Below, piece after piece: positions 4,286 through 36,779 of a stretch of DNA of 44,339 nt (positions within the stretch are counted from its first letter, which is position 1; each line of letters opens with the position of its first letter). The stretch spans positions 1 through 44,339 of the IMG/VR virus record IMGVR_UViG_3300017969_006784. One strand, written 5' to 3'. A program made the position numbers and the translations under genes. The notes beneath the pieces were generated by a model, which saw only the letters and a list, made by a program, of their open reading frames with translations, made no database searches and had not been told where the DNA came from. The DNA comes from a virus.

Positions 4286-5503
4286 TCAAGCAAAATTAAC
4301 AACACCACCAATAGTTTTTAATGTTTCAGTTAAGTTTTTAGCTACCTGTGCGCACACGTCATGCCATTTTTTAGGTATTACAATATTTTCACACTTAATA
4401 AAGCCTCCGCATGCTCCACTAACATAATATTTTACGGCCCAGTCGACTTCTTCTTTTATTAATGTGTCACTATTCCTTAATCTTATTTCACAAAGCTCAT
4501 TAGCTAAATTCGATACTCTCTCCGCATATACTTGTTGTAATGTTTCTTCTGCGCTTAACATTTTATTTATAAGTGATTTTTTATGCGCAGATATATCTTT
4601 ATCAGTGTTTAGGACTATGTTTTTATTATATATTTGTACTTTGTTAACAAAACCATACCGTTCTTCTTCATTACATGCAATAGCTATCACGTCGCCAAAC
4701 TGACAGTTAATACTCATTCCTCCAGTAATTTTAATTAAGTCTACTAACGCATTGATATTTTTGTATGATGTACCGTATTGCAATGGTACAACATTTAACT
4801 TTCTTTTAAGCCAGTTAGTACCCAGCGTAGCAATTAATTCTTCTGGGAAGCTTCTGCATATTAACAACCAATTTTGCTGAGTTTCATTTGCCTTAGTTAG
4901 AAATGTATTTATTTCGCTTACACTTGCTATGGCACCTTCAATTAAAAGTATACTAACATCATTTAAAACAATGTTGTTTGTACCTATCATTTTCGAAAAA
5001 TTCTTGTCTATTACTAAATCTGACCTGTATCCATTTTTTAATTCAATTACGTTTTCACTAGAATTGCTATCTATAACAGATATATGAGTTGTCGGACTTA
5101 TATTGTCAAAAACATTTTCAACTATAGTAGCTGCTTCTGCAGACACGTGTCTTTTAATATTTTTTATTATTTCTTTTGTTCCTAATCTAAAATCAGATTC
5201 TCTTTTTATTTTATTTGCTAAATAATAAAAAAGTAAAGATGAGCTGCCAGGTTCATATTTTTCAATAGCTTGACACGCATCTAATATTATCTTGGATATT
5301 TCATTATCAACTTCATTCTTCTCTAAAGATAAAAACCATCTAGATGCACTTGATACACCCAGATGGTAAATATTTGACTTAATCAAACCTTTTTTATTAT
5401 GCCACATGTCCGCAGTAGAAACCACGTGTGATATAACACTTTGTGACAGATTTTCAACCTTTAAGAACTTTGTCTTCTGATACTTTTTTGCTTTGTTTTT
5501 CAT
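4286..5503 (-). CDS. Divergent GroEL-like (cpn60) chaperonin, truncated
   Basis: The 405-aa product can be laid along GroEL. Visible matches are NGYRSDLVIDK (GroEL RGYLSPYFINK), VSILLIEGAIASVSEI (PFILLADKKISNIREM), 'LIKITGGM' (IATLTGGT), 'AERVSNLANELCEIRL' (QERVAKLAGGVAVIKV) and 'EEVDWAVKYYVSGACGGFI' ([22 protein letters not shown]). The Asp equivalent to catalytic D398 is kept. But the ATP-site signature DGTTT is replaced by PGSSS (near residues 85-89), the GPKGR loop is not visible, and the protein ends where GroEL still has about 100 equatorial residues. It may be an apical/intermediate-domain adaptor that works with host GroEL. The start is uncertain: ATG 5503 (or TTG 5509) lies inside the upstream gene and has no strong ribosome site. 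Confidence 0.8.
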   Translation of the reverse strand: MKNKAKKYQKTKFLKVENLSQSVISHVVSTADMWHNKKGLIKSNIYHLGVSSASRWFLSLEKNEVDNEISKIILDACQAIEKYEPGSSSLLFYYLANKIKRESDFRLGTKEIIKNIKRHVSAEAATIVENVFDNISPTTHISVIDSNSSENVIELKNGYRSDLVIDKNFSKMIGTNNIVLNDVSILLIEGAIASVSEINTFLTKANETQQNWLLICRSFPEELIATLGTNWLKRKLNVVPLQYGTSYKNINALVDLIKITGGMSINCQFGDVIAIACNEEERYGFVNKVQIYNKNIVLNTDKDISAHKKSLINKMLSAEETLQQVYAERVSNLANELCEIRLRNSDTLIKEEVDWAVKYYVSGACGGFIKCENIVIPKKWHDVCAQVAKNLTETLKTIGGVVNFA

Positions 5504-5705
5504 TTTCAAAATACTGCGTTAATTTTTCTATAGAATTAAATACTAATTTTTGTATTTCAGCAACCTTACTGTACTCTAGAGCATAATCAATAATCTTTGC
5601 TGCAATAGCAATTATGAAACAAAGGACAGAATATGTAAAAGAAACTTTGTAAAAAAGATAACTCAATACTAGCAAAATTTCTGGGAAGCCTAAATTAATT
5701 TTCAT
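5454..5705 (-). CDS. Small membrane protein with cytoplasmic helix, 83 aa
   Basis: Residues 1-43 contain two closely spaced hydrophobic stretches (FPEILLVLSYLFY and VLCFIIAIAAKIIDYAL), followed by a charged, coiled-coil-like tail. AGAGGTG lies upstream of ATG 5705. It overlaps the previous 61-aa membrane gene by 11 bases and the chaperonin by about 50 bases, so the three are one transcriptional unit. The arrangement resembles small paired membrane proteins such as spanin- or holin-like partners, but there is no lysin next to it, so that remains open. Confidence 0.6.
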   Translation of the reverse strand: MKINLGFPEILLVLSYLFYKVSFTYSVLCFIIAIAAKIIDYALEYSKVAEIQKLVFNSIEKLTQYFENEKQSKKVSEDKVLKG

Positions 5706-7171: not shown

Positions 7172-7218
7172 TAAAAAAGATAATGAATTATACCGCTATT
7201 AACAGTATAATTCATTAT
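7172..7218 (-). terminator. Terminator hairpin ending the PrkA transcription unit
   Basis: There is a perfect 14-bp inverted repeat, 7180-7193 and 7205-7218, with an 11-base loop. Read on the minus strand it is followed directly by CTTTTTTA, the layout of a rho-independent terminator, although the stem is AT-rich. It lies after the 35-aa gene and just before the ribosome site of the gene starting at 7161. The inner TATAAT could also act as a -10 for that gene. Confidence 0.65.
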
Positions 7219-7246
7219 ACAATGCACACATAATTTTTATAAAAAT

Positions 7247-7354
7247 TTATTTGTATTCATTAAACATTTCATAAAATATATAACCAAATATTAAGGCTAT
7301 AGGAAATGTATATATTAATAAACACAAATAATATACTAGATTAGCTAGTATCAT
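7247..7354 (-). CDS. 35-aa single-span membrane miniprotein
   Basis: ATG 7354 overlaps the TGA stop of prkA (ATGA), and the frame stays open for 35 codons to TAA at 7247. The translated peptide starts MILANLVYYLCLLIYTFPIA and continues as one hydrophobic helix with a short polar end (EMFNEYK). Translational coupling to PrkA and position before the terminator argue that it is real in spite of its size. It may tether or regulate the PrkA complex at the membrane; this is inference. Confidence 0.5.
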   Translation of the reverse strand: MILANLVYYLCLLIYTFPIALIFGYIFYEMFNEYK

Positions 7355-9273
7355 GAATCTCTCCAAAGGTTATTAGATGCATAAGTTAAAATTTCTTCAG
7401 CTGAAGTTTCATTGTAACCATATTCATCTATTAGTGTTTTTACCATATCAGAATATTTTGCTTTTTGTTCATCATCTCTGGTTTTAGACTTTGTAACAAT
7501 TCTAGCCATATCTTTTACTGAATTAATTAGGTAACTCTCAATTGCTTCTTTCAAAGGTTCATAGCTTTTATAATCTACTTTTTCGCCACGTCTCATTCTC
7601 GAGAACATATAAGCTGTCACATCAGATCTAAAACCCTGTCTAGAACTACCACTAATACCGATAACTTCTTCTATAGACTTCATAAATTGCTCATCAGCTG
7701 ATCTTTCTTCTTTAGTTACTTTGTCTTTAAGTTTTGTTTTAGTAGTATAAGCTTCAGCATTATCTAAATACGTATCAAATAATGACTGTGCTTGTTCTTC
7801 ATATGCTGTAATAAATGCTTTAGCAATCTCAGTCTCAAGTATTTTAAGATATTCTTCGCGTACAGTTTTTTGTATAATCTCCAAACACTTTTCTCTAAAA
7901 TCAGCATTAACTATTTGTTCTTTCACCATCTTGGTCACGGAATTAATAACACCCACCGGAGTAATACATTCATTTTCACTGTCACACAAAGCATTGTCAA
8001 TAGCTTTCATGATAAACCTTGTACTAATACCAGTCATGCCTTCATCACGTGATTCTTCTCGCAAATCTTTTATGTCTATTTTTTTAACTCGACCTTTTTC
8101 AATTACGTCTTCCCCATTATAAATTTTCATCTTTGTAAGCAAATCACACTTAGCAGATTCTTTAAGTCTACTCATAACAGAGAACATACTTGCAACCTTG
8201 ATTGTATGTGGTGCAATATGAGCATCAAAATCTGATTTTGCTAAAATCTTTTCATAAATTCTGGATTCTTGATCTAATTCTAAAACATATGGGACATTAA
8301 TCTTAACTACTCTGTCGAGGATTGCTTCGTTTGTGTGTTCTGATTTAAATCTATTCCATTCAGACTCGTTACAATGTGCCAAAATAACACCATCGAAAAA
8401 CACCATATCATGCTTACCAGGAGCAGGTACTCGTTTTTCTTGAGTTGCTGTAATAATCGTGTGAAGAAATTCAATTTCATTTTTAAACACCTCTATCAAC
8501 TCAACGATACCCCTGTTACCAACATTAAATGCGCCAGTAAGATTTAAAACACGGGGATCATCTTCACTAAATTTATCTAACTTACTTATATCTTCTGAAC
8601 CAATAAGCACAGAAACATCTTGACTATTAGCATCCATAGGTGGCACAGAAGCAATTCCACGACGTCCCCTTTGCGAAAAAGTACTTTTGACTACAGGGAA
8701 ATTTTCATATTTACCATCATGCTCTTCTAACAATTTATACCGAGCTATTGGCGATAAATCACCTTCAATCTTAACATCTAACATTTTTTCAAAGTCTTCT
8801 CTCAAAGATCTAGGCAACAGTTGCAATGGTTCTCCACGTTGAGGATCATCTTTTAAGTGATAATAAGGTTTGTCTTCTAATGCTGCTTTAATATGTTCCG
8901 TCAATGCTGATTTACCAGCACCAACTGGTCCCATTAAAAGCAACACTTGTCTAGATTCTTCACCTCTAAGTGCAGCTCCTTTTAAAAACCTCATAAGCTT
9001 TTCTATTACTCTTTCATTGCCATAGAAATGATCTTTGAAATAATCATAAATTTTAATGTTATCACCATTAAATATTTTATGCTTTCTGTCGTCATCAGCT
9101 GATATTGTGTTAATACCTTTTTCACATATCGCATTATACAATCTCTTGTGCGCATGTTGTGCTATGGACGGATCGCTTTCTAGTTCTTTCAGATAATCTA
9201 AAAAAGTACCTTCAAACTTATCAGACTTTTTGTCTTTTCTTTGTTTCTCAATAATTTCTAAATATTTTGACAT
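7351..9273 (-). CDS. prkA: PrkA/YeaG-family AAA+ serine protein kinase
   Basis: The 640-aa length is essentially that of bacterial YeaG/PrkA (about 640). The N-terminal AAA+ domain carries Walker A GPVGAGKS at 115-122 and family-typical segments such as 'FFDGVILAHCNESEWNRFKS' in the middle, and the C-terminal PrkA domain follows (GISTRFIMKAIDNAL onwards). In bacteria PrkA acts with a YeaH-type VWA protein and SpoVR/YcgB in stress, starvation or sporulation and has been described both as a kinase and as an ATP-dependent protease. Here it is last but one in a unit with both partners, 16 bases after spoVR. AGGAG precedes the ATG. The full length argues for a working enzyme. Confidence 0.93.
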   Translation of the reverse strand: MSKYLEIIEKQRKDKKSDKFEGTFLDYLKELESDPSIAQHAHKRLYNAICEKGINTISADDDRKHKIFNGDNIKIYDYFKDHFYGNERVIEKLMRFLKGAALRGEESRQVLLLMGPVGAGKSALTEHIKAALEDKPYYHLKDDPQRGEPLQLLPRSLREDFEKMLDVKIEGDLSPIARYKLLEEHDGKYENFPVVKSTFSQRGRRGIASVPPMDANSQDVSVLIGSEDISKLDKFSEDDPRVLNLTGAFNVGNRGIVELIEVFKNEIEFLHTIITATQEKRVPAPGKHDMVFFDGVILAHCNESEWNRFKSEHTNEAILDRVVKINVPYVLELDQESRIYEKILAKSDFDAHIAPHTIKVASMFSVMSRLKESAKCDLLTKMKIYNGEDVIEKGRVKKIDIKDLREESRDEGMTGISTRFIMKAIDNALCDSENECITPVGVINSVTKMVKEQIVNADFREKCLEIIQKTVREEYLKILETEIAKAFITAYEEQAQSLFDTYLDNAEAYTTKTKLKDKVTKEERSADEQFMKSIEEVIGISGSSRQGFRSDVTAYMFSRMRRGEKVDYKSYEPLKEAIESYLINSVKDMARIVTKSKTRDDEQKAKYSDMVKTLIDEYGYNETSAEEILTYASNNLWRDS

Positions 9274-9289
9274 ATTGTTATTCTCCTAA

Positions 9290-10579
9290 CTAAACTTCAT
9301 AAGGTGCATTGTCTATCATTGTAATTAGTGAAACATCATTTCCCCACAATTCTTGTATATGTCCAACAACTGCAGAAGCATGATTTAGATCCAATTCTCT
9401 ATGATCATGCTCATGATGTAAAATTAAATTTTTGTTTTTTTCTACTTCCTGAATGTATATGACGGGAATTTGATTGCCAGCTATTTGTTGCAACAGGCTG
9501 TTTTTGATTGTTTTCCAACCTTCTTCATCAGATACATCGCCAACATATAAGTCATCGCCTTGTTTCTTTATAGAAAATAGATTGAGTTCTTCGCAATCTT
9601 CTTGCGTTAAATATTGCCTAACAAATGATTCATCGTTATGCGCTTCTCTTGCTATAAAACACTCTTCTAAACCATGTCTTTCATGTATTTTATTAAATAA
9701 ATGAAACCCTAAATTGTAAGGATTTATTCCGCCTATGTGCGGCCTTACAACTTGGTTGTGAGATTTAAGAAAAGGTAAGTGATATTCTTGTGGCAAATCT
9801 AAATCATGTAGTATTTTGTAGTGCCAAAAACATGCCCATCCTTCATTCATAATCTTTGTTCTAATTTGTGGCATAAAATAATAAGCTTCATCTCTTACTA
9901 TTTCTATAATATCTTTTTTCCAATCTTCTTTTATTTCACCGAAACTAGAAATAAAACCCATTATGTCATATATTTTTTCATGTGGTAGTTGCTCTATATC
10001 AACATTTTTATTGTTTTTATTTTCTATCTGCCAAGCATTATAATCTTCACTAATAACTGATATTTTGCTAGGATGTCTCGGGATTTGATATGAAATAGCA
10101 TGACATGCATCAATTACTCTTTCTACTTTTTCAATTCCTATACTCGGATCTTCAATGTATGACTGTATTCTCTTTTTTGCATTACGCATTCTAGGTACAA
10201 CTGTATCAGCCCTTGTATATTTGAACATTCTGTTATTTTTAAAAAAATCAGAGTGACCTACACAATGTGCCATTATTAATATTTGCAAATAAAGTGGATT
10301 TTCTAACATTAAGTATGATATACATGGGTCACTATTAATGATTAACTCATAGGGAAGACCAGTCATCCCATGCTGATATTGACTATGTTGTAACTCAAAT
10401 GATTTACCATAAGACCAATGACCATAATGTGTAGGCATACCATGATATGACATATTTCCTAACATTTCATAGTAATCACATGTTTCATATGTTATAGGAT
10501 ACCAATCTAAATTATGCTTCTTTGCAATATCACATATTTTTTCATCCCACTCTTCTAAATCTTGTAATGTCCAACTCAT
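9290..10579 (-). CDS. spoVR: SpoVR/YcgB family protein
   Basis: The most likely start is ATG 10579 (MSWTLQDLEEWDEKI) with AAGGA upstream and a 4-base ATGA overlap with the stop of the preceding gene; a longer frame to 10609 has no such support. The 429-aa product has the SpoVR layout: N-terminal 'ICDIAKKHNLDWYPITYE', 'ANCFWHY'-type centre (here EGWACFWHYKILHDLDLP) and 'NPYNLGFHLFNKIHERHG'. It is somewhat shorter than E. coli YcgB (about 510). SpoVR works with PrkA and YeaH/YhbH, and both genes flank it here. Biochemical activity of the family is unknown. Confidence 0.92.
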   Translation of the reverse strand: MSWTLQDLEEWDEKICDIAKKHNLDWYPITYETCDYYEMLGNMSYHGMPTHYGHWSYGKSFELQHSQYQHGMTGLPYELIINSDPCISYLMLENPLYLQILIMAHCVGHSDFFKNNRMFKYTRADTVVPRMRNAKKRIQSYIEDPSIGIEKVERVIDACHAISYQIPRHPSKISVISEDYNAWQIENKNNKNVDIEQLPHEKIYDIMGFISSFGEIKEDWKKDIIEIVRDEAYYFMPQIRTKIMNEGWACFWHYKILHDLDLPQEYHLPFLKSHNQVVRPHIGGINPYNLGFHLFNKIHERHGLEECFIAREAHNDESFVRQYLTQEDCEELNLFSIKKQGDDLYVGDVSDEEGWKTIKNSLLQQIAGNQIPVIYIQEVEKNKNLILHHEHDHRELDLNHASAVVGHIQELWGNDVSLITMIDNAPYEV

Positions 10580-10899
10580 AACACTTTCCTTAAATTGTTG
10601 AAAGAACAAACATGCAACTCTTTGCCAAATAACACATTTGCAAAATCTTCACAATCATTAATATAATCAATTAAATAATCACCTGGTTTTTCTAACTCCA
10701 CCAATATCTCTGTAGAAATAATGTGTGATTGAAAACATTCGACAATTATACCGCCAAGTTTCTCAGTATCGTCTATCAAAACTGATGTTTCCGCGAGGTC
10801 ATAATCGTTATTACCTGGATTGTAATTGCCATCTTTGTCTGGTATGGATTTAAATATTTCCCATGTGTAATTAACTAAATCTCCAGGTTTAAATGACAT
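10576..10899 (-). CDS. SH3-like small protein inside the PrkA unit, 107 aa
   Basis: ATG 10899 has GGAGGT 4 bases upstream, and gives MSFKPGDLVNYTWE; the upstream extension to 10941 lacks a site. 'KPGDLV' at the start followed by short strands suggests an SH3/KOW-like barrel, as in at least nine other small proteins of this window. It overlaps the YeaH stop by 11 bases and the SpoVR start by 4, so it is embedded in the trio. It may be an adaptor specific to the phage version of the system. No named family. Confidence 0.7.
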   Translation of the reverse strand: MSFKPGDLVNYTWEIFKSIPDKDGNYNPGNNDYDLAETSVLIDDTEKLGGIIVECFQSHIISTEILVELEKPGDYLIDYINDCEDFANVLFGKELHVCSFNNLRKVL

Positions 10900-12073
10900 C
10901 AATACCTCCAAAAAATCCTGTAAAAGCTGGCCAAACATCATTTTTTGATTCTATATGCGATATTTTCATTTTCTCATCTTGCAAATGAGCTAAAGTATTT
11001 GAAAGAGACGCAGAATCTAACCATAACGATTTTTCATTGTCAGGCACTATTTCACAGTATCCTACAAATTGGCACTTTTCTTTTAATTTTTGCATGCATG
11101 TTAATACTTTTTCATTATCATTACCCCAATTGTCACCATCACTGCAATGAAATGTATACAAATTCCAACTATCAGAATTGTATCTAGATTCTATTGCATC
11201 GCAAACGTATTCGTAAGCTGGACTTACAATTGTTCCGCCACCGGAGCCTCTCTTAAAAAATTTGTCTTCATCAACTTCATATGGTTTAGTATCATGAGCA
11301 ATAAATATTATCTCTGTTTGTTCATATTTTGATCTGATAAAGTGATAAAGTAAGAAAAAGAATGATCTAGCTAAATACTTTTTATTAGTACTCATAGATC
11401 CACTAACATCCATTACGAAAAATATACAAGCATTACTAGCGTATTTATTTTTCTTACTAATATGTTTATATCTTAAATCAGCATCGTGGTATGAAAACGA
11501 CTCATCACTTTCAGGGTCATATGTACCTGATCTAATTGCTGCGTTCTTTCTTTTTATGCGTCTTTTCGCTGTTTCTTTTTTACTTAATCTGGGTCTTATA
11601 CCAGAATTCCTGTAACCTTTTCTTTTAAACCCAGATGAAATAATTTTTTTAAGATTTTTCTTTTGCAAGTCAGGCAAATTTAAATCAGCAAATAAGTAAT
11701 CAGCCAACTCTTCTAAAGTTATTTCAACGTCATAATATTCTTCGCCAGCTTTATCTCCTGCCTTATTATCTTTGCCTTTTTTACCTTTTTTTTGACCTTG
11801 TGAAATTTTTTGTCCACGCTTTACGTCTAAATCACCGCCTTCACCGACTTTTTGTGAGTTTTTTTGATTTGCTCCATAAACAAATTTGTATTCTTTTATA
11901 CCCCTTACTGGTATACGAATTTTTTTCTTTCCATCCTGACCTATTATACTTTCTTCTGCTACAATATTGTGTATGCCATCTTTTATTGCTTTTTCTATTT
12001 TTTGCTTATGTCGTCTTTTGTCGGAAGCAGATCTATCTGCTGTTGTTCTGTGATGACTAAAAACTGAGCTCAT
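10889..12073 (-). CDS. yeaH: YeaH/YhbH-type (DUF444) VWA-domain protein
   Basis: The 394-aa protein has the usual DUF444 layout: basic N-terminus (HHRTTADRSASDKRRHKQKI), a Lys/Gly-rich linker at 85-110, then a VWA domain with the metal-binding DVSGSMS at 222-228 and 'GSGGGTIVSPAYEYV' downstream. In bacteria YeaH is the partner of PrkA/YeaG and SpoVR. It is the first gene of this unit; the leader contains a sigma70-like promoter at 12093-12121 and GGAG before ATG. Length is close to the family's usual 420-430. Confidence 0.93.
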   Translation of the reverse strand: MSSVFSHHRTTADRSASDKRRHKQKIEKAIKDGIHNIVAEESIIGQDGKKKIRIPVRGIKEYKFVYGANQKNSQKVGEGGDLDVKRGQKISQGQKKGKKGKDNKAGDKAGEEYYDVEITLEELADYLFADLNLPDLQKKNLKKIISSGFKRKGYRNSGIRPRLSKKETAKRRIKRKNAAIRSGTYDPESDESFSYHDADLRYKHISKKNKYASNACIFFVMDVSGSMSTNKKYLARSFFFLLYHFIRSKYEQTEIIFIAHDTKPYEVDEDKFFKRGSGGGTIVSPAYEYVCDAIESRYNSDSWNLYTFHCSDGDNWGNDNEKVLTCMQKLKEKCQFVGYCEIVPDNEKSLWLDSASLSNTLAHLQDEKMKISHIESKNDVWPAFTGFFGGIDVI

Positions 12074-12092
12074 AATATCTCCATGTTAAATA

Positions 12093-12121
12093 ACTATACA
12101 TGGCTTATCAAAAATGTTCAA
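12093..12121 (-). promoter_or_regulatory. Candidate sigma70-type promoter for the YeaH-SpoVR-PrkA unit
   Basis: On the minus strand TTGAAC (12121-12116) and TATAGT (12098-12093) are separated by exactly 17 bases and lie about 20 bases before the YeaH start. It is a good match to a host-type -35/-10 pair, but the region is AT-rich, so chance matches are possible. Confidence 0.45.
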
Positions 12122-17599: not shown

Positions 17600-19006
17600 T
17601 TATTCTTTCATTTCTATTAAGAAGTCTCTGTTCTTCTTTTTGAAAGCAAGTTTTCCGTCTGGTACAATAACCCAGCCTACCTTAAGGTTTGATTTAACTT
17701 GTGGTTTAGAAGCATAACCATCTGTTAATATAAGTATACCATCATACTTAGATTTGTTTAAATTAGCATGCTTAATAACGCAAGTAAAACATGTGCCACC
17801 GCATCTGGTACGCTTAATATCAATACGCTTACCTTTTTTGTATTCTTGTTCAGAGTCGACATCTACTTCAGTATCAAAGTTGTACATAGTAAATGTTACT
17901 CTTTTAGCAAGATTTTGAAGTTCGCCTGAAAGTAATTCTAAGTCACTATCTGAAACGGAACCAGACTGGTCTACGTATACAGCAATATTAGATTTGTAAT
18001 CACGAAAAGCTCCTGGGTGTATTCCAGGATACTTGCGATGTATGCGTCTAATAGATGATGCTCTATCAGCACGTCTAGACATTCCACAAAATTGCTTAAG
18101 CACTGATTGCCAAGGGATTTCACGTGAAACCAAGCTACGTAAAGTAGAGCGCATCGATGCACTAATGTTACCCCACTTATTTGTTCTATCACATTCCTTA
18201 ATAGACTTTTCAAGTGCGACCTTAATCTTACCTTCCATTTTTTGACGTTCTTCATCAGACATACTATCCCAACCTTCATGGCTATCCATAGAACCTTCGC
18301 CACCTTCTCCGGGAACAACTGTAACTGGATTACCATCTTGGTCAACGAGGTTGCCATCTTCGTCTATTTTGACAGTGCCATCTGCTAAAGCATCTTGCAA
18401 AGATTTTCCTTGCATTTTTTGCGCAGATTCTATAGCCTCTTTGACTTCAGGGTCTTCCATAAGTCTAGAGAAATACCATTCAGCATTTTTGTTTTTAGGA
18501 AAAGAAGCAATTTTGTTAGATATCATTTCATATCTATCAGCAGCTTGTTGACCCATTTGTTCAACTTGCTCTGCAGTAAGAGGTTTAAATTTTTTACTAG
18601 GTATTAAACCACCTTCCGGTAATTCATCTTCTGGTATCATACTATTAATAGCTAAATCAGTAGCATAATTCCAAACTATATGTGGGTCAAATCTACGTGT
18701 TGTAGTGTGACTGAAGATTAAGTGCATTGCTTCATGCTTAAGCAAGCCAAAAACTTCTTTTTTGCTTAAACCAGCGAGAAACTTTCTATTCCACATCATG
18801 TGTATTTCACTGTCTTTGACATACACACCCGCAGTAGGAATTTTAGTAGTTTCAGACTTGTTAATTTGTCTGATAATGTGCGCATAAAAAGGCTCATTCC
18901 ACATGAGAGAAATTAAATAATAGTCTAGATTGAAGTTATCCATTTGTTCTTGAGTAACTTCTTTAGAAATAAGAGATTTGTTTGTTTCAACAGTGTTTGC
19001 AGACAT
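17600..19006 (-). CDS. DUF2201-type metallopeptidase-like protein with VWA domain
   Basis: 468 aa. The N-terminal metallopeptidase-like domain has HEAMHLIFSH (91-100; HExxH), the middle (200-260) is a Gly/Asp/Glu-rich linker, and the C-terminal VWA-like domain has DQSGSVSD (346-353). This matches the DUF2201 N-terminal plus VWA-like layout that is usually encoded beside a MoxR-family AAA+ ATPase, as here (19318-20415). Such pairs are thought to remodel or assemble metalloproteins and complexes. Own promoter at 19039-19068 and GGAG ribosome site. HExxH is complete, so protease activity is possible but unproven. Confidence 0.9.
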   Translation of the reverse strand: MSANTVETNKSLISKEVTQEQMDNFNLDYYLISLMWNEPFYAHIIRQINKSETTKIPTAGVYVKDSEIHMMWNRKFLAGLSKKEVFGLLKHEAMHLIFSHTTTRRFDPHIVWNYATDLAINSMIPEDELPEGGLIPSKKFKPLTAEQVEQMGQQAADRYEMISNKIASFPKNKNAEWYFSRLMEDPEVKEAIESAQKMQGKSLQDALADGTVKIDEDGNLVDQDGNPVTVVPGEGGEGSMDSHEGWDSMSDEERQKMEGKIKVALEKSIKECDRTNKWGNISASMRSTLRSLVSREIPWQSVLKQFCGMSRRADRASSIRRIHRKYPGIHPGAFRDYKSNIAVYVDQSGSVSDSDLELLSGELQNLAKRVTFTMYNFDTEVDVDSEQEYKKGKRIDIKRTRCGGTCFTCVIKHANLNKSKYDGILILTDGYASKPQVKSNLKVGWVIVPDGKLAFKKKNRDFLIEMKE

Positions 19007-19317: not shown

Positions 19318-20415
19318 TTATTTCAAGTTTCTAGAAGTTTGTACAATCTTAGTTACTTTTGCACCAATAAGCTTGTGAATAGCACTAATATTTTTTAGAT
19401 TACCAGAAGATGAAATATTACCCCAAAGTGTAACAGTAAGCTCGTCTGAAATAACTTCAGAGAAGGCTGCTACATTAGCTGCTTCAGATGCATCCCAGTC
19501 GTTATCCATGCAATGTTCCTTAAGTTTGTCACATATACCAATAATAATGCCAGTTGAAACACCTTCTAGTTTAGTTAAATCATACCCAGCTAGAATGTCT
19601 TCAGCAGTAATATTTGCTTCAGCATTTTTGACAAAAGTGTTAAATGCAATACCAGCTTCTACACCTACCATACCAATTAATAAAGTGTATACATAATCAG
19701 GCATTTCCTTACCAGCATAGCTGCTAGGATTGACACCCATATGCTTAAGACAGGTATCAACTCTGTGCCAAGAAGCAGGGTTTGGACAAACAGTTCCAGG
19801 TTCAACAGTTGATGGATCGACTCTAAGATGAACAGGGTTTTGTTGAATAAATTCTACTAACAATTTATCTATAGAATTATTCTTAGCCCAAGAAACCCAA
19901 TCTTGTGTACTAGGTTCAAGATTAACTGCCCAAAAACGACGAAGAAGTGCAGGGTCCATTTCGTTGACATCATACTCTGAACCAACATTTACCGCAGCAA
20001 ATATTCTTGTATTTGGATGCAATTTATATGGAGCACCGTTTTTGTCGTTACCAAGAGCTCTATCTAAAACTAATTGGAAGAATGATTGTTGAACGCCAGG
20101 AAGAGAACGATTAAGCTCATCTAGCATTACAACACATGGCTCAGAACAAGCACGAATAAACCAAGAAGGCATGCAGAAAGTCATGACACCGGTTTCCTTC
20201 ATACTTTCAATATCTGGATAACCACCTACATCACCTTCAGACATAGTAGAACCAAAGACAGGGATAAATGGTAAATCTAAATCCTCAGCAACTTGTTTAG
20301 CTAAAAAAGATTTACCGATACCAGTAGGACCTTGCATTAAGACAGCAATTTCTGGTGGCAACTTAGATGCAACAGCAAGAAATGAAGAGATTGTTGTAGT
20401 TGTTTTTGTAGACAT
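19318..20415 (-). CDS. MoxR-like AAA+ ATPase
   Basis: 365 aa. Walker A GPTGIGKS at 29-36, Walker B MLDELNR at 97-103, and 'DPALLRRFWAVNLEP' with the arginine finger typical of the MoxR/RavA group. It would energise the VWA/metallopeptidase protein at 17.6-19.0 kb, its usual partner. The gene has its own promoter motif (20462-20491) and GGAG ribosome site, and is separated from its partner only by the small SH3-like gene. All ATPase motifs look intact. Confidence 0.93.
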   Translation of the reverse strand: MSTKTTTTISSFLAVASKLPPEIAVLMQGPTGIGKSFLAKQVAEDLDLPFIPVFGSTMSEGDVGGYPDIESMKETGVMTFCMPSWFIRACSEPCVVMLDELNRSLPGVQQSFFQLVLDRALGNDKNGAPYKLHPNTRIFAAVNVGSEYDVNEMDPALLRRFWAVNLEPSTQDWVSWAKNNSIDKLLVEFIQQNPVHLRVDPSTVEPGTVCPNPASWHRVDTCLKHMGVNPSSYAGKEMPDYVYTLLIGMVGVEAGIAFNTFVKNAEANITAEDILAGYDLTKLEGVSTGIIIGICDKLKEHCMDNDWDASEAANVAAFSEVISDELTVTLWGNISSSGNLKNISAIHKLIGAKVTKIVQTSRNLK

Positions 20416-21906: not shown

Positions 21907-22350
21907 TTAATCAATATCAATGTTGAAAGATTTTGTTTTATTTTCAACGTTAAATGGCACATTTACTAGCAAAAGACCAGCTTCGTATTTTGCTGATATC
22001 ATTTCTAAATTAACAGTTTCTGGCAAGGTCCATGATCTGCTAAAGTTATTATATGAAAACTCTCTATGGATATACCCGCTGTCTTTATTCGAATCAGTGG
22101 AATTTTCAACGCGTACAGTAAGAACATTGTTTTCAACATTTAAGCTAAAATCATCTCGAGAAAATCCAGGCGCTGATAACTCTAATGTGTATCTGTCATC
22201 CAACTTTTTGACGTTGGCTAAAATTCCAGATGATTTTTGTTTGCTACTTTTGTAATTAGTTGGAAAAAAAAGATCCATTGCATCGAAAACACTTGACATG
22301 TCACGTGAAAAAGGATCAAAAGAATTCATTAAAGGATATAGTTTTGACAT
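21907..22350 (-). CDS. Small heat-shock protein, Hsp20/alpha-crystallin family
   Basis: ATG 22350 (MSKLYPLMNSFDPFS) follows GGAG by 7 bases; the longer frame begins at a TTG that lies in that site. In the 147-aa product the alpha-crystallin domain spans about 45-140, with 'RYTLELSAPGFSRDDFSL', 'NNVLTVRVEN', 'YIHREFSYNNFSRSWTLPE' and 'AKYEAGLLLVNVPF' (the A-x-x-x-n-G-L pattern). Hsp20 is a chaperone that holds unfolded proteins; hsp20 genes are common in T4-like marine phages. Complements the chaperonin at 4.3-5.5 kb. Confidence 0.93.
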   Translation of the reverse strand: MSKLYPLMNSFDPFSRDMSSVFDAMDLFFPTNYKSSKQKSSGILANVKKLDDRYTLELSAPGFSRDDFSLNVENNVLTVRVENSTDSNKDSGYIHREFSYNNFSRSWTLPETVNLEMISAKYEAGLLLVNVPFNVENKTKSFNIDID

Positions 22351-22468
22351 ATATTTATTCTCCAAAGTATAATTAATAATAAAATATAGATAAAAATGTA
22401 GACGTCATTTGCATGACTAGATTATTATAATCACCAAATTATGTTTTTATAAAAAAAAAGGACAAATT

Positions 22469-25777: not shown

Positions 25778-26337
25778 TAATTAATGATATACAAAACCCA
25801 GGGCAATTAAAAGTTTACACTTCGGGCTTATACAGGCAAGGCTGGGACGATGCTTATTATGCAGACCCTGCTGCAGTTGCAACTTCCGGTGGGGACCCTG
25901 TTTTCGAAACAACAAACACAAATATTTTCCAACTTTCAATAGGGACGACGGATGCCTTAATATGGCGTGGCTATTTTTTACCTGATGCATCATCGTCTAC
26001 ATGGCAATTCCGTACTGTTTCAGATGATGCTTCATTTCTCTGGATTAATAGACAAGATACAAACGAACCTCGAAATGCTGCGCAGCAAACAAATGCAAAT
26101 ATGGTTAATGCTGATGCAACTGTCAACAATGGTGGTCTTCACTCTGTGGTAACCGCGTCAAGTGGTAACATCACATTGAACGCCGGCGTGTACTACCCTA
26201 TCTGTATTTTTGCTGCAAATAACACAGGTCCAGGAACAATAACTGTACAGTTTAGACGTGATAGTGGCACATGGCAATCGGATGGTGCCGGGTTTTATTT
26301 TTATGATGCGGGTGCTGATGATGGATACCATTTATAA
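25774..26337 (+). CDS. PA14-like adhesin domain protein, 187 aa
   Basis: It starts at GTG 25774, which overlaps the fibre stop (GTGA), with GGAG 6 bases upstream. The body 'IWRGYFLPDASSSTWQFRTV', 'DASFLWINR', 'GLHSVVTASSGNITLNAGVY' and 'FAANNTGPGTITVQFRRD' is like a PA14-type carbohydrate-binding domain of surface adhesins. Together with the fibre upstream it probably forms the host-recognition tip. Its end overlaps the convergent thioredoxin gene by 6 bases. Function inferred. Confidence 0.65.
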   Translation: MIINDIQNPGQLKVYTSGLYRQGWDDAYYADPAAVATSGGDPVFETTNTNIFQLSIGTTDALIWRGYFLPDASSSTWQFRTVSDDASFLWINRQDTNEPRNAAQQTNANMVNADATVNNGGLHSVVTASSGNITLNAGVYYPICIFAANNTGPGTITVQFRRDSGTWQSDGAGFYFYDAGADDGYHL

Positions 26338-26865
26338 ATTACTAGCGTATTCACTTAAAATTTGTTTGTTGTATCCTCTTACGTAATCTATGACTGTTTT
26401 ATTTTCATCGAATACATAAAAAGTTGGCCATGCATCTAAGTATAATTTGTTTTCTACTTCTGTAGGGTTTGACGTCAAAATTTCTCTACTACTTGCCCAA
26501 ACTGGTGTATCAACTCCTAATGAGTTTTTCCACCCATCAATATCATTTGCATCTGGCGGATTACCTACGCCATCTTCAATAAGTAGTGTTAAAAAAGTAA
26601 CATCAGGATATTGATCGTGCAAATCTGACAAGTCCTGTGCAGCAGTTTGGCACGGTGCACACCACATTGCACTAAGGTCCATGACTACTGGTCCATCTAT
26701 GTCATGAAACCACACCGGCTGATCATATTCGTTTGTAGCCATAAAGTCGCAAATTTGCTTCCCTTTCAATGTTGCGCATTCTTCTGTGTAAACATACTGA
26801 ATTTCTTTTTCAACGCTTTCTGGTGCCATATCTGCGCATGCAAAAAACATAAACATATTTAACAT
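26332..26865 (-). CDS. Thioredoxin-fold (TlpA-like) lipoprotein
   Basis: 177 aa. MLNMFMFFAC is a very short, uncharged signal with the lipobox FFAC (Cys10). After a 60-residue linker the domain reads 'VMDLSAMWCAPC' (redox C-x-x-C), 'DVTFLTLLIEDG' and 'AWPTFYVFDENKTVIDYVRG' (cis-Pro loop WPTF). It is a TlpA/AhpC-like thiol-disulfide protein, anchored outside the inner membrane. AGGAG precedes ATG. It is the third gene of the secreted minus-strand cluster 28959-26332. The lack of positive charges in the signal is unusual. Confidence 0.85.
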   Translation of the reverse strand: MLNMFMFFACADMAPESVEKEIQYVYTEECATLKGKQICDFMATNEYDQPVWFHDIDGPVVMDLSAMWCAPCQTAAQDLSDLHDQYPDVTFLTLLIEDGVGNPPDANDIDGWKNSLGVDTPVWASSREILTSNPTEVENKLYLDAWPTFYVFDENKTVIDYVRGYNKQILSEYASNL

Positions 26866-26875
26866 AAACTTCTCC

Positions 26876-27418
26876 TTAAGGAACGTAAAAATTTGGACCC
26901 ATTAAAGAAAATGAAGGGTGCATTATGTGTCCGGCTTTTTTTACGTGCGCATAACCTAATGCATGTCCTAACTCATGTTCATTTAATAGATGTAATTTGT
27001 AATTTTCTTCTTTGTAATATATTATTGATGAAATAATATTTAAAAAACTAGTTTGCCTTATTGTAGCAGCTAACGCTGTTTCATTTATATGAACATCTCT
27101 CTTTTTAACTTTTTTTAAAATTATAAAACCCGGGATATATTTTTTATCACACAAGTTTTTAGGAGGTCTGTGTTCATAAAAACCAAACTTTTCACCTTTT
27201 CTAGTCCAATACGTCATTGCTCTTTTAATTGATTGCTCAGAAAATTCTTTGCCGTAACAGTTGACTATATTAGGTGGATTTTCCCAGCTGTACTGTTTAA
27301 AAGTATTTAATTCATATACTAATTTCATATTAAAACCAACAATCATACCCAAAACTAAAGACAAAAACAAAGCTGAAAAAATAACCACCATGTCTGTTTT
27401 TTCACTTTTTTCAATCAT
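26876..27418 (-). CDS. Matrixin-like zinc metalloprotease, membrane-anchored
   Basis: ATG 27418 overlaps the stop of the upstream gene (ATGA), giving MIEKSEKTDMVVIFSALFLS; the first 30 residues are a single hydrophobic anchor. The zinc motif HELGHALGYAH (148-158, HExxHxxGxxH) is followed by the Met-turn 'HIMHP' (166), as in matrixins. With 180 residues it is a minimal catalytic domain. It would act outside the cytoplasmic membrane. It is sandwiched between the ASH/VWA and thioredoxin-like lipoproteins, so it belongs to one secreted module. Confidence 0.8.
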   Translation of the reverse strand: MIEKSEKTDMVVIFSALFLSLVLGMIVGFNMKLVYELNTFKQYSWENPPNIVNCYGKEFSEQSIKRAMTYWTRKGEKFGFYEHRPPKNLCDKKYIPGFIILKKVKKRDVHINETALAATIRQTSFLNIISSIIYYKEENYKLHLLNEHELGHALGYAHVKKAGHIMHPSFSLMGPNFYVP

Positions 27419-28959
27419 TCTCCACACCCTCTGACAGCATATTTTACATTAATTGTTTGCCCTGGTTCCGGCACACTGTCTTCAAAAAATGAAACTTTGT
27501 TATCATCTTCAATGTATTCCCAATCAGCACTTATCTGACCGTTGACTGTAACTTCTATTGTTTCAATTAAAACATCATTTTCACTAAGCGGAAAAAATCT
27601 AGAAGTACTTACTTCTTCAGCTAAATCTTGCAATTGCATCCCCCAATCTTCCGCACAAATAGAGTACCATTTTCCTCCGTAATGATTGATTAATTCATGG
27701 TAACCATAACCTGGTTGAGCAACGTTATAACCCCAACTACTAAGTTGGCACCCGTTAGGTATATCACCTATTACACCGTACGGTATAAAATCACCAGCTG
27801 GTTTCAAACTATCAAAAAATGTAGTATATGTTTGCCAACCATTGTACGACCAATCTTGCTCATCAGAAACATATATTACAACTAGTTTAGAATCTGTTCT
27901 AAAAAATGGGCTCCCGGGACCACTGTATAAACCATTAGACAATGACTGAAAAGACATTTCTATACCCTGTTCTATACCACTTCCGCCTATTCCTGGCATT
28001 AAAAGCTGTGCCAATACATTTGAAGCATTTGGAGTACTATTACTTACGATCGTAGTAAATGAAGGATCATCAGTTGTGATAACTGCTATGTGAAAATCAG
28101 CACCAACATTAAAAAATGCATTTACGAAAACGCCAGTATTGTTAGCCAAATTAGTTTGAAAACGGTTCATTGAGCCTGAGTTATCAATTACCCACAATAT
28201 ATCTAAAACTGGTACCTCATCTTGGACCCAAGTTTCATCATACCATTGTTCAACTTCTCCATAACCCTTTTGAGTAATTTGGTATTCCGCTTTCTGTGGA
28301 TCATTACTGGTAATTTTTATAATACTTTCATCATTACCAATATCGTTTGGTATATAAGAAACTAAAAAGTCTAACTGGTGCGTAGGTTGTATTACCCACG
28401 GCGTAGATGGCAATGTGCCATTTTCTAAAATTATATCCACTGGTGAATTTACTAATTGATCTAGATCTTCAATTATCAAATCTAGATTGCCACTATTTTC
28501 TATCGTTATACGTTCTTCAATATCACAGCCGATTGTGATGTCTCCCCAATCAATAGTTTCTGGCTCTATATTTAGCACTGGGGCGTCGCCGTAACCTTCA
28601 AGTGTAACTTCTACAGTGGTCGTTTCCTCATCGCTGCTGATTATTCTTACTATTCCTCCATTTGCTTCATAAGTTTCAGGCGTATAGTCAACTTTTAATT
28701 CCACTATTTCATCGATGCCTATAACAAGTGGTATATTTGTATCAATAGAGAATCTACTATTACCAGAAATTAACTCGGGGGACAAGATTTCTAAATCAGA
28801 GTCCCCCGAATTTATAATATATATGTTTTCACTTGCGTTTTCATGCCCCGACAGCAAATGGCCAAAATCAATGTGCTGTGGATGAACTAATAATGTCGGT
28901 TGTTTTGGATCAGTTTTTATGACACCATAATCAACACAGCCTAACGCAAGAAATAACAT
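27415..28959 (-). CDS. Lipoprotein with two ASH-like domains and a VWA domain
   Basis: 514 aa from ATG 28959, which has GGGAGGTG at the ideal distance (a GTG at 28968 lies within the site). The signal MLFLALGC is only seven residues before the lipid Cys. Residues 15-120 and 122-232 are two repeats with the 'DFGHLLSG...IYIINSGDSDLEI' and 'DWGDITIGCDIEERITIENSG' pattern of ASPM-SPD2-Hydin/choice-of-anchor-D domains. A VWA domain follows with DNSGS (259-263). The architecture (lipid anchor, ASH, VWA) is typical of Myxococcota-like surface proteins. First gene of the secreted cluster. Possible host-derived moron or surface-modifying factor. Confidence 0.85.
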   Translation of the reverse strand: MLFLALGCVDYGVIKTDPKQPTLLVHPQHIDFGHLLSGHENASENIYIINSGDSDLEILSPELISGNSRFSIDTNIPLVIGIDEIVELKVDYTPETYEANGGIVRIISSDEETTTVEVTLEGYGDAPVLNIEPETIDWGDITIGCDIEERITIENSGNLDLIIEDLDQLVNSPVDIILENGTLPSTPWVIQPTHQLDFLVSYIPNDIGNDESIIKITSNDPQKAEYQITQKGYGEVEQWYDETWVQDEVPVLDILWVIDNSGSMNRFQTNLANNTGVFVNAFFNVGADFHIAVITTDDPSFTTIVSNSTPNASNVLAQLLMPGIGGSGIEQGIEMSFQSLSNGLYSGPGSPFFRTDSKLVVIYVSDEQDWSYNGWQTYTTFFDSLKPAGDFIPYGVIGDIPNGCQLSSWGYNVAQPGYGYHELINHYGGKWYSICAEDWGMQLQDLAEEVSTSRFFPLSENDVLIETIEVTVNGQISADWEYIEDDNKVSFFEDSVPEPGQTINVKYAVRGCGE

Positions 28960-29010
28960 ACATAACACCTCCCTTAAAAATAAGTCACTAATTATAAGTA
29001 TTGTGAAATA

Positions 29011-32053: not shown

Positions 32054-35000
32054 TCAATTTTTTATTTTTATTTTAGGTATCAAAATATCAGTGTATGTAG
32101 AATTTGAAACTAAATTTGCCAAATCTTTTGCACTAACAGTTTCCTTTATATCAAAACTTACTGTGTTTAAAAATAATGAACGATACTGTGTATTTTTATA
32201 GGCAAAAGCATATAAAATAATAAAAGCATCTGAAAATAAATAAAATGGTAAATTCATAATATTTATGGTTTCATTAGGCTTAATTAACTCTATTGTTTTG
32301 TCTGTCGTAGGTTTTCTTCCGACAACTGACATTGGCGCAGCAGTATCAGATTCTTCAGTGCTCTCTGCATTATTAAAATTTTCTAAAGCAGCTCCATACA
32401 TTTTTTTGTATCTACTCGCAAATGAACCAGCAAAAACATCTGATGGGTGTCTTTTGTTTTGCCAGTGACCATCAATACCAGCATGTTTCCAATATTCTAT
32501 TTGCTTTTTAAAACTTTCAACTTCTACAGGATTGTTAAAAATACTTGAATATATTTTTTCTACGTGATTTGATATTCTATATGGCAATGGATTCTCAATA
32601 TCTTTTTGTAGACTGGCAGAATATTGAAAGTATTTATCCAATATATAACCATATCCTGTTATGTGATAACAGTAATTAATAAATATATTAATGCTTTCCT
32701 TCGCAAGTTTTGAGTTATCTACTATGTCCTGCACAAAATGCTTCCATTTAGCCGGCTGTTTTTTCGCCATTTCTTGATGAGCACCAGCGCCGACAAATTT
32801 AAAATATGCCCAGAAAAAATCCTCTGGTACTGCTTCCGTAAACATGTTTTTGTTGCTTAAATAAAAGTTTTTATAATCGTACATATAGTCAATAAAATTA
32901 ACCTTATCTACAAATTCATCGGAACCGTATACAGTAGACCAACTTTCAAATGCTCTTATTTTAGTTTCTGTGCCCGTAATAGTAGCTTTACCGCAAAGAT
33001 ATTCCCACATAGAAAACCCGTCATTCAAATAAGTATTACTATCAAACAATGGCATACGACTTGCTCCACTTGATTTAAAACCATACAAACCGTAATCTTT
33101 TAAATTATTATAAAATATTTTTCCATCATATGATATTAAATTAGCATATAGTTTTGCTCCGTGTTGATAATGCACCATAAAATCTTGAACTGCCTTTGGT
33201 TTTATTGCTAATGCATTAACAAGACCTAAAACTAAGAATCTAGATTCAAACGTAGTGTGATTTAATTTTACAAACTGATTATATATTTTTTCAGTAAAAA
33301 GAAAGACTTGCGTTAATATATCGTACAAAACTCTATCTTTGCTTTTTACATGATTTAAAAAATTAGAAATTGCTTCTATAATGCGACTTGTCTTTTCTAT
33401 TTCACTTGGATCGTCTGTTCTTCTTTGATAAAAATAACCTAACGCATTGATAAATCTAATACCAATTATCCCTTCTAACATGTAGTCATTAAAGTCATTG
33501 TATTCTGCATTTTGGCCATCATTAACTAGTCTAACAACCTTTTCTATCCCAAGCATAGATTTTGTTTTTTCATAAAACTGAATAAGGTTTTTAAATGAGC
33601 TTTCAGAATAAAAGCCTCCAGTAGTCCCAGTGTGGAATATAGACGACATTATTTTACTTATAAACACATTGTATGTTCTATCTTTATTTGTGTCTCCAAT
33701 CAGTGCTCGAGATGCATACATTTTTATTTCGCTATAGTCACCAAAAGCACTCAGTGTATCTAACATTTCAAATATTTCTTCCATCTCTTGTACATTAAAG
33801 TTTGGTTTTTTATACAAGTTTATTTTTTTATCTATGTTTAAATCCTTAACAGCGTCAGCTCCAAGTATACCTACGTATTTATTTAAAAAAGATTTATTTT
33901 CATTAAAATACCAACCAGAGTTATTTAAACCTCCGTCATTCGCTCGAGGATAAAATGATCTACTTGCATTAATGTGATTATACATATTCTCAAAGTACAA
34001 TATCCTGAAAGCACTGTTGTTTAAATTTTTGCTAAATGTTTTCTTAAAACTTTTCTCCGCTCCTTCCTCTTTCATTCTGTGCTTGTAAAATTTAACCATT
34101 AGTTCTTTTAATTCACCCCAGTAAACAGTGTTCCAATTAGCCATGTGTTCTTTATCTACTGAAGCTTTGAATAAGTTTCGTAATTTTTCTAAACTTTTGT
34201 CTCTTTCCTCGAAAAACTCTGCATTTTCCTCTGTTTCTTCTATTTCCACATTCTGGAGTCGTAAATCATGTAGAATATTCCCTTTTAAGGAATGTTTTCT
34301 TCCAGCACTTAAGTTATAAACATTAAACAATTCTATTTTTGGATGATCACTTATAAAATTATGTACTGATGCATCTTCATTTTCAGCAAAATATTTTTTA
34401 ATATAGTCACCAGTTACTTGTTTTGAAGATTGAGCTATGGAATTTGACATGTCAAATTTACGTTTGAAAGACTTCATAACTTGAGTATGAGCATATTGTA
34501 CCAAACTGGTATTGTCTGCACTAAATAATTGCGTATCATCTAATATACGTTCATCTATGAATGATCTATGTTTATTATCTTCTGCATATTTGTTGTTTAT
34601 TATTATATCAATGTTTTTATTTTTAAAAATATTTTCTAACATGTGTTCATATTTTTTTACAAACTTTCTAGAAAAACTAAGAATTTCGGCTGGCGCAAAA
34701 ACTGGTTTGTTATCGAGTTTCTTACACATAAAATACATCAAACTACCTAAAGACACAGACAAATTAATATCTTTACAATATGCTTTCGGCTGATCAGTTA
34801 AGACATAAATCTTATTCTTCGAAGCTTTTTTTGCTTGTTCCCAAGAACTAAAAGGGTCGATGCCTAAATGAATATTAATTAAATAATTTCCCTCTGTTGG
34901 CGCATTACCACCATCGAAGATAGCTGCCGGACCAATGTCTTTAGGATCCCATAGTTTTGTACTTTTGTCATATTTCAAAGTTAATTTCTTGACAGTTTCT

Positions 35001-36778: not shown

Positions 36779-36779
36779 T

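Follow-up and report, generated by a model that had tools for sequence, protein, structure and literature searches.

PrkA, DUF444 and SpoVR are protein families found widely in bacteria and haloarchaea, and papers on them disagree as to whether PrkA acts as a kinase, as a protease or as neither of the two. In 2011 the three genes were described in one operon of R. etli (PMC3188799) and as linked genes of haloarchaea and many microbes (PMC3102087). Here we report that a 44,339-base stretch of DNA, the IMG/VR virus record IMGVR_UViG_3300017969_006784 (the whole of which is called the window), carries a phage-owned copy of this cellular PrkA-DUF444-SpoVR module, in a lineage of large T4-like phages.

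The cellular operon, as seen in R. etli, haloarchaea, Bdellovibrionota and Sphingobium and as yeaG-yeaH in E. coli, contains the same three families as the window, but in the cells inspected its order is PrkA-DUF444-SpoVR, whereas the window has DUF444-SpoVR-PrkA, and cellular PrkA is at most 39% identical to that of the window over long matches, among the matches listed. The Thermus phages phiYS40, TMA, YS40_Isch, Lalka8/27a/27b, phiLo and MN1 share PrkA and DUF444 with the window in all 11 records, and the four that were inspected (phiYS40, Lalka8, phiLo and MN1) have DUF444-SpoVR-PrkA on one strand, the same order as the window; they differ in their PrkA, which is 29-32% identical to that of the window and forms a separate clade, and phiYS40 differs also by a 616-amino-acid open reading frame (ORF) between SpoVR and PrkA. 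The huge phages LR756502, LR745206, LR756504 and LR756511 have PrkA, DUF444 and SpoVR as the window does, but with a cell-like gene order in LR745206, LR756511 and LR756504 and with SpoVR about 244 kb away in LR756502; the PrkA of LR756502, LR745206 and LR756504 groups with Pseudomonadota. The Ralstonia jumbo phage RsoM2USA resembles the window in having SpoVR (ORF28) and PrkA (ORF30), but its SpoVR is 56% identical to a Vibrio protein and therefore of the proteobacterial kind, and DUF444 is not named in the available passages (PMC8504454). In the virome of an oxygen minimum zone spoVR was counted as an abundant viral gene and taken as a sign of sporulation (PMC8940887). The view of the original prediction, that no phage system of this form had been described, does not survive these records: both the cellular module and the trio in Thermus phage records, annotated wholly or in part, were already known. 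What is new is the order of the trio conserved in related viruses, its probable repeated capture by phages and a zincin lead for SpoVR, the last two possibly surprising to a specialist. In the available passages of the literature on SpoVR, PrkA or DUF444 with phages, whose coverage leaves out most subscription journals, we found no description of a conserved phage trio.

The trio lies on the minus strand and is transcribed in the order DUF444, a 107-amino-acid ORF, SpoVR, PrkA, a 35-amino-acid ORF and a hairpin, with the following features:

10889-12073, minus strand: DUF444 (YhbH/YeaH-type VWA protein), 394 amino acids, first gene of the trio; Pfam DUF444 E 1e-107, 361.3 bits against a cut-off of 27.
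10576-10899, minus strand: ORF of 107 amino acids, overlapping DUF444 by 11 nt and SpoVR by 4 nt (ATGA); no known family.
9290-10579, minus strand: SpoVR, 429 amino acids from ATG; SpoVR E 5.2e-120 (401.3 bits, cut-off 27), SpoVR_C E 2.5e-9.
7351-9273, minus strand: PrkA, 640 amino acids; AAA_PrkA E 1.2e-136 (455.9 bits) and PrkA C-terminal domain E 9e-81 (271.7 bits), both with a cut-off of 25.
7247-7354, minus strand: ORF for a hydrophobic peptide of 35 amino acids, 3' of PrkA.
7218-7180, minus strand: intrinsic terminator, an 18-pair hairpin with a T run.

The original prediction had read this region as a YeaH-type VWA protein, SpoVR and full-length PrkA in one unit, with ATGA and 11-base overlaps, a promoter in front and a terminator behind. 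The profile searches bore out the three families, all above the Pfam cut-offs and in one tight unit, and the overlaps are those of the 107-amino-acid ORF. The term YeaH-type holds as far as the DUF444 family goes, but the VWA protein is nearer to Bacillus YhbH, its best NCBIfam model being spore_yhbH (394 bits, below the cut-off of 468). PrkA reached 397 bits against the NCBI equivalog PRK15455 (cut-off 576) and SpoVR 291 bits against PRK11767 (cut-off 679); because all three proteins fall below their equivalog cut-offs, we describe them as family members and do not file them as orthologs of the E. coli or Bacillus proteins. The terminator is present after the last gene, but its hairpin is longer than the 14 bp first given for it, with 18 pairs, and stronger, at -18.4 kcal/mol (z -3.85, with equal folding in 1 of 200 shuffles). 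The sigma70-like promoter before DUF444 was not upheld: 33 promoter-like sites were found around the trio, compared to 36.7 +/- 5.8 in shuffles, and a 9/12 match at 12121-12093 was rejected, as it lies in a region with no excess over shuffles.

A search of IMG/VR with the SpoVR query returned 134 stretches, the best 80 of which were used as viral loci. By tblastn, DUF444, SpoVR and PrkA were found in this one order and on one strand in 78 of the 80, which is far beyond chance, and the claim of a complete trio in one unit stands; the two loci lacking DUF444 (L009 and L084) both begin at a contig end. Clustering at 70% identity gave 3 clusters from 74 sequences for PrkA, 21 from 80 for SpoVR and 24 from 74 for DUF444. 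Selection on SpoVR and PrkA is strongly purifying: for each gene we took up to six of the most similar pairs of near-equal length at 90-98.5% identity, and the ratio of nonsynonymous to synonymous substitution rates (dN/dS) was 0.014-0.041 in 10 of the 12 SpoVR and PrkA pairs, these being the computable ones, with dS below 2 in 7 of the 10 and 2.2-2.95 in 3; the sole DUF444 pair was saturated. The one order and the strong selection in phages speak for a trio that functions as a unit, and its compact proteins lend themselves to testing.

The two small ORFs did not recur in this way. At a tblastn threshold of E 1e-3, the 107-amino-acid protein was found in 1 of the 80 viral loci (L016) and the 35-amino-acid peptide in 2 (L009 and L016), both loci being near-identical to the window and L009 ending inside SpoVR, so that it cannot reveal the 107-amino-acid gene. 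The gap between DUF444 and SpoVR is at most 30 nt in 74 of 78 loci (the exceptions are L011, L016, L042 and L057), which therefore leaves no space there for a gene of the 107-amino-acid type. A hydrophobicity search for a short ORF at the PrkA end of 74 loci found four, of which only those of L009 and L016 are window-like and the other two unlike it, and neither small protein matched a family in the profile libraries. Both ORFs are thus apparently private to the window phage, as judged from their sequences, and since they occur only in near-identical copies of the window we take the unit to be a trio and not the self-contained set of five genes that had been proposed; across the viral loci it is the trio that recurs and the small proteins that do not. 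Between DUF444 and SpoVR, two mutually related small ORFs (E 5e-12) were seen at L011:7637-7981 and L089:7742-7990; they were rejected as homologues of the 107-amino-acid protein by phmmer with the --max option (107-amino-acid protein against L089, E 1.0-1.6). The DUF444-SpoVR junction seems to accept small insert genes.

We then weighed the possibility that a host chromosome had been mistaken for a phage. The window itself gave no match to the T4-type Gp23 capsid or terminase models, and the three relatives found in a scan of 84,980 species genomes are all titled bacterial metagenome-assembled genomes (MAGs). The window does carry phage-type genes, namely PhoH with a PIN domain, a DNA helicase (phrog_2488, E 7e-114), a tRNA-Leu and a transfer-messenger RNA (tmRNA). 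Capsid and terminase genes were searched in 30 of the 80 viral records, picked with preference for long ones: Gp23 was above cut-off in 8 and terminase in 10, and among the six records longer than 200 kb each was present in 5, a 361-kb record giving no Gp23 match and a terminase match below threshold only; five further short relative records gave no Gp23 match. Among 14 control genomes Gp23 matched none and Terminase_6N matched 6, and because of the latter we count terminase as a mark of phage or prophage only together with Gp23. One of the MAG-titled contigs, L089 (NHDW01000006.1, 305,838 bases, labelled as a Methylococcaceae MAG), has the cassette, with a PrkA 82% identical to that of the window, together with the T4-type capsid gene Gp23, and is very probably a mis-binned large T4-like phage. 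In a second MAG, labelled Halobacteriovorax, PrkA occurs twice, on separate contigs: a phage-type copy (75%) and a cellular one of its own (39%). The count of 3 relatives in the species genomes vs 134 in IMG/VR, with query patterns that differed between the two, points the same way. A host-chromosome origin is accordingly almost negligible as an explanation, and the placing of the module on a phage, given already by the IMG/VR virus record, was corroborated by Gp23 and terminase on the long relatives.

To place the phage copies among cellular ones, a PrkA tree was computed from 55 rows, the window and 54 of 150 PrkA-matching loci picked for spread. The phage rows are the window, 17 others of its clade, 4 Thermus phages, 4 huge phages and Enterobacter phage LAU1, and the cellular rows comprise 13 Pseudomonadota (phylum by MAG label), 10 Bdellovibrionota, 3 Bacillota and 2 alphaproteobacterial plasmid rows. 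By the Shimodaira-Hasegawa-like approximate likelihood ratio test (SH-aLRT), the window clade (100) and the Thermus phages (100) each came together, three huge phages fell beside Pseudomonadota YeaG (100) and LR756511 with Bdellovibrionota (100). The approximately unbiased (AU) test rejected a tree constrained to unite the window clade with the Thermus phages (p-AU 0.007) and, strongly, one in which all three phage groups were united (p-AU 3e-50). These results suggest that phages probably captured the module repeatedly, at least three times, with the exact number not fixed; the search was quick, branches are long, the AU test shares the weakness of the model there, the groups were picked after seeing the tree and one odd row, L098, falls in with the Thermus phages. 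If true, repeated capture would mean a function useful during infection. Among the groups sampled, which were two phyla and plasmids, none encloses the window clade. When cellular PrkA were scored with the phage profile, two of the three Bacillota plasmid rows came out best (557 and 525 bits), the others reaching 323-464. The order PrkA-DUF444-SpoVR was found in cells in the Bdellovibrionota loci and on the Sphingobium and Pontibacillus plasmids, and the rotated order common to the window clade and the Thermus phages inspected may have arisen by convergence; alternatively, the tree may mislead.

Two rows of this tree deserve a separate mention. The PrkA of L098 (G147:C51), a locus of the Pseudomonadota sample, joins the Thermus phages with an SH-aLRT of 90 and has a long branch; matches to DUF444 and SpoVR adjoin it, arranged as in cells. 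The record of Enterobacter phage LAU1 (L007, MN688132.1) opens with a host-type yeaG-yeaH, which may be the host flank of a prophage, and its PrkA stands among the Pseudomonadota rows.

For SpoVR, an AlphaFold2 model built on 22 phage sequences had a mean predicted local distance difference test score (pLDDT) of 83.6 and a predicted template modelling score (pTM) of 0.84. Using this first model, a second-look structure aligner reported 121 chains with Z >= 2, and 48 of the best 50 of these 121 can be assigned to the zincin metallopeptidases from their titles or protein families. ACE and ACE2 entries account for 29 of the 48, so that the list is redundant; the families represented are M1, M2/ACE, M4, M13, M32, M49, M61, collagenase and MATCAP. 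The top row, 3o0y, is a Colwellia 'putative lipoprotein' whose title names no function (Z 11.8 over 181 residues, 3.6 A); after it come M1 aminopeptidases (Z 10.0 and 9.9). The second of the two function-less titles among the best 50 is an Aquifex protein, presumably YbeY-like. A second model, of the first 336 residues of SpoVR from the divergent phage L064, had zincins in 22 of its first 24 rows (Z 9.5 to 4.3); the remaining two are SnPolE, an Fe2+/pterin enzyme, and rows from Z 3.3 down are mixed and unrelated. The SnPolE rows indicate that such a fold can serve another chemistry.

The residues agree with this fold. H105, H109 and E246 are invariant in 35 of 35 SpoVR rows, which comprise 22 of the window clade and 13 others, L092-L094 among the latter being again window-clade copies, which leaves 10 from other lineages. 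In the model, H105-x3-H109 lie in one helix and E246 in another, and a stretch N-E-G-W-A resembles the NEGFA motif of M1 peptidases. Position 106, which holds the catalytic Glu in HExxH, is Cys in every one of the 22 phage rows; the 13 others have V (5), A (5) or C (3) there. Because this Glu is absent we do not file SpoVR as an active HExxH peptidase, for instance of M1. Taken together, the models suggest that SpoVR is a degenerate zincin-like protein in which the predicted metal site is kept and the usual catalysis lost. Several results weigh against this. Foldseek alone found no SpoVR match in the PDB at E <= 0.001, a profile search of PDB sequences with SpoVR returned no peptidase and no real relative, and the second-look aligner sees only Foldseek candidates, so that the zincin reading is carried by that aligner and by motif conservation. 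Furthermore, the L064 model is weak (mean pLDDT 71.6, and below 50 in residues 43-88), and Z scores of 9-12 are moderate for the largely helical SpoVR. In a viral structure library SpoVR had one good match (E 3.1e-9), an unnamed viral protein of 617 amino acids, which is taken to be a phage SpoVR, its length equalling that of the phiLo SpoVR ORF. A description of SpoVR as a metallopeptidase was not found in the available literature passages, in a search that did not use the wordings 'zincin' and 'pseudopeptidase'. The prediction makes the metal site (H105, H109, E246) directly testable.

In the two partner proteins the motifs expected of an ATPase and of a VWA domain are conserved. The PrkA Walker A motif around K121 is invariant except at A119 in 10 aligned phage PrkA, and the Walker A Lys (K121 in the window) is kept in 8 of 8 PrkA compared. 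In DUF444, the MIDAS-like (metal ion-dependent adhesion site) residues D222-x-S-x-S, T281 and D312 are invariant in 11 of 11 aligned phage proteins, with a putative metal-binding role; the DxSxS, T and D residues are those we take to form the VWA MIDAS motif. The MIDAS is the usual grip of the VWA partners of AAA+ proteins on their clients, and AAA+/VWA machines, such as MoxR with its VWA partners or the I/D subunits of chelatases, consist of an AAA+ ATPase, a VWA protein and a third partner. The trio is like this class in having an AAA+ protein, a VWA protein and a third partner, and differs in that the third is SpoVR and not chelatase H. To our knowledge there is no structure of the PrkA-DUF444-SpoVR trio, and a PDB sequence search with DUF444 gave no real relative.

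We give about even chances to a mechanism of AAA+ remodelling, with a PrkA ring, a DUF444 adaptor and a SpoVR partner. PrkA would form an ATP-using AAA+ ring; DUF444 would dock through its MIDAS-like site and bridge the ring and SpoVR; and SpoVR, a degenerate zincin with the H/H/E ligands kept, would be a metal-binding client or effector and not a classical protease. Its ATP-driven remodelling would switch the activity of SpoVR on RNA or protein during infection, and the phage would benefit in that a slowed or stressed host, and phage proteins, are held in a usable state; the benefit may thus be host quiescence, as with YeaG/YeaH, or care of phage proteins. Among these parts, the SpoVR fold and the metal triad are supported by prediction. 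B. subtilis SpoVR crosslinks to RNA in vivo (PMC12456014), and in E. coli deletions of yeaG and yeaH have a common phenotype and YeaG K116A does not complement (PMC4664914).

Other data on PrkA are harder to reconcile with this mechanism. YeaG R232A and K426A also fail to complement, and the authors invoke AAA+ plus kinase activity (PMC4664914). An ATP-dependent protease activity has been reported for the PrkA of B. subtilis (cited in PMC13001217). A role in quiescence is taken from YeaG/YeaH of E. coli, and the YeaG in E. coli plasmid records shares about 32% identity with the phage PrkA. As for the assembly of a complex, its switching and its advantage to the phage, all three are inferred. 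Signalling by a Ser/Thr kinase, with PrkA phosphorylating host proteins, would account for the inactivity of YeaG K426A in E. coli (PMC4664914, PMC10954441). In a residue comparison numbered on LAU1 YeaG, which has K116, R232 and K426, we found K116 to be general, but R232 to be replaced by Ser both in the window clade and in B. licheniformis. At the position of K426, all three window-clade phages compared have Lys (window K423), B. licheniformis has Asn and two Thermus phages have Asp. Moreover, B. anthracis PrkA had negligible kinase and protease activity in vitro, with no detectable autophosphorylation and no kinase P-loop (PMC13001217). Because R232 and K426 are not general in the family and B. 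anthracis PrkA has negligible kinase activity, an AAA+ ring that acts by remodelling accounts for the data better than a kinase does; the latter we regard as highly improbable. An ATP-dependent protease, in which PrkA would be Lon-like and its partners would select substrates, is also very unlikely: beside the B. subtilis report it has in its favour weak matches of PrkA to Lon chains, but these cover only residues 71-138 of the AAA+ part, and the B. anthracis protein with negligible protease activity is given as 88% alike (PMC13001217).

The AAA+ remodelling mechanism has also to be set beside the reading of the original prediction, which saw in the trio a means of reprogramming host dormancy or protein turnover. 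Such reprogramming is possible. As auxiliary sporulation or dormancy genes, the trio would push the host into a spore-like or dormant state, an idea that draws on the names and roles of these genes in Bacillus and E. coli, on YeaG/YeaH, described as a 'metabolic brake' of starved E. coli (PMC10954441), and on spoVR as the most abundant sporulation-related viral gene of the oxygen-minimum-zone virome (PMC8940887). At E 1e-20, however, PrkA was present in 74 of 78 genomes of the phylum of the Halobacteriovorax MAG and in 49 of 200 of that of the Methylococcaceae MAG, each tally including the MAG with the phage copy. These phyla are not known to form endospores. Since the module is common in bacteria without endospores, spoVR is no sporulation marker, and viral spoVR in metagenomes should not be taken as evidence of sporulation; the sporulation or dormancy reading, which leans on gene names and on results from other bacteria under starvation, is unproven, and we consider it unlikely.

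The neighbourhood of the trio suggested a further reading. Clustering of the ORFs of 82 loci (L010-L091), with a flank of 8 kb or less that makes all neighbour counts lower bounds, showed as recurrent neighbours, common to the window via L016, a helicase (at least 29 loci), PhoH (at least 28), a protein of about 160 amino acids (at least 36), an HldE-like nucleotidyltransferase (at least 22) and a Nudix protein (at least 18). A chaperonin-like family, which includes an ORF of the window, was found in at least 45 loci. The features of the window that bear on this reading are:

4286-5509, minus strand: degenerate GroEL-like chaperonin, 407 amino acids; phrog_5725 E 3.1e-10, profile positions 143-391 of 540.
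17600-19006, minus strand: DUF2201, a metallopeptidase-like domain (HEAMH, by eye) fused to a VWA-like one; DUF2201_N E 5.8e-13, DUF2201 E 3.2e-9.
19318-20415, minus strand: AAA_5 (MoxR-like) AAA+ ATPase, adjoining DUF2201; Pfam AAA_5 E 1.1e-16.
43840-44187, minus strand: tmRNA gene with tag ANNNKHFEAAAIAA, outside the trio; found by ARAGORN, RF00023 E 3.6e-42.

Five short members of the chaperonin-like family that were scanned against PHROGs all came out as chaperonin GroEL (window E 3e-10; L014:11510-12916 E 1e-21), and Pfam gave no match for the short forms tried, that of the window included. The window protein matches only the middle of the chaperonin profile and is therefore taken as a degenerate relative. 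Eight family members of 537-546 amino acids, the full size of GroEL, stand elsewhere in the flank, one of which (L027:2958-4589, minus strand) matched Cpn60 at E 8e-73. The chaperonin-like gene lies within 500 nt 3' of PrkA in 32 of the 66 loci that have at least 1,700 nt there; in the window a 423-amino-acid ORF separates the two. DUF2201_N was found in 15 of 30 relative records, and one phage may thus carry two AAA+/VWA/zincin sets. The tmRNA is common in this lineage, RF00023 being above the gathering score in 19 of 31 records, that is, in 18 of 30 relatives and the window; only matches above the cut-off were counted, because all 14 control genomes, archaea included, match RF00023 and 9 of them do so above cut-off. 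ARAGORN gave tags in 14 of 17 fetched regions (L153-L166), which are diverse, all end in AA and in 10 of 14 cases end in ALAA; L167-L169 match RF00023 but have no ARAGORN call.

On this evidence the trio could be part of a phage proteostasis machine that, together with the chaperonin-like protein, an Hsp20/alpha-crystallin protein (21907-22365, Pfam E 1.1e-17), the second AAA+/VWA/zincin pair and the tmRNA, sees to the folding, remodelling or rescue of phage proteins such as the capsid or giant proteins in a long infection. This reading draws on gene neighbourhood: 34 of the 66 loci have no adjacent chaperonin-like gene, and two annotated cellular trios, both on plasmids, have no chaperonin beside them, so that as an explanation in its own right it is doubtful. 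A joint reading, which we put forward tentatively and at somewhat less than even chances, is that SpoVR is a degenerate zincin, related in fold to M1 aminopeptidases and still with its metal site, that PrkA-DUF444-SpoVR (split) and the MoxR-like ATPase with DUF2201 (VWA and zincin fused) are versions of a single AAA+/VWA/zincin machine, that both of them, the pseudo-chaperonin and the tmRNA would form a phage-owned protein-quality package in a lineage of large T4-like phages, and that the PrkA version was recruited at least three times. A defence-system reading was tried and rejected, PADLOC giving only weak AAA+ matches (DolB, IetA and PDC-S49).

Elsewhere in the window, two adjoining giant proteins of 1583 and 1652 amino acids (32054-41738) have N-terminal regions that are similar by eye; neither has a Pfam match, and the first has no PHROG match. 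At 26332-28968 there is a run of probably secreted proteins, unusual for a phage, with one thioredoxin-like (by eye), one matrixin-like (Peptidase_M10 E 9e-6) and one VWA-like motif (by eye).

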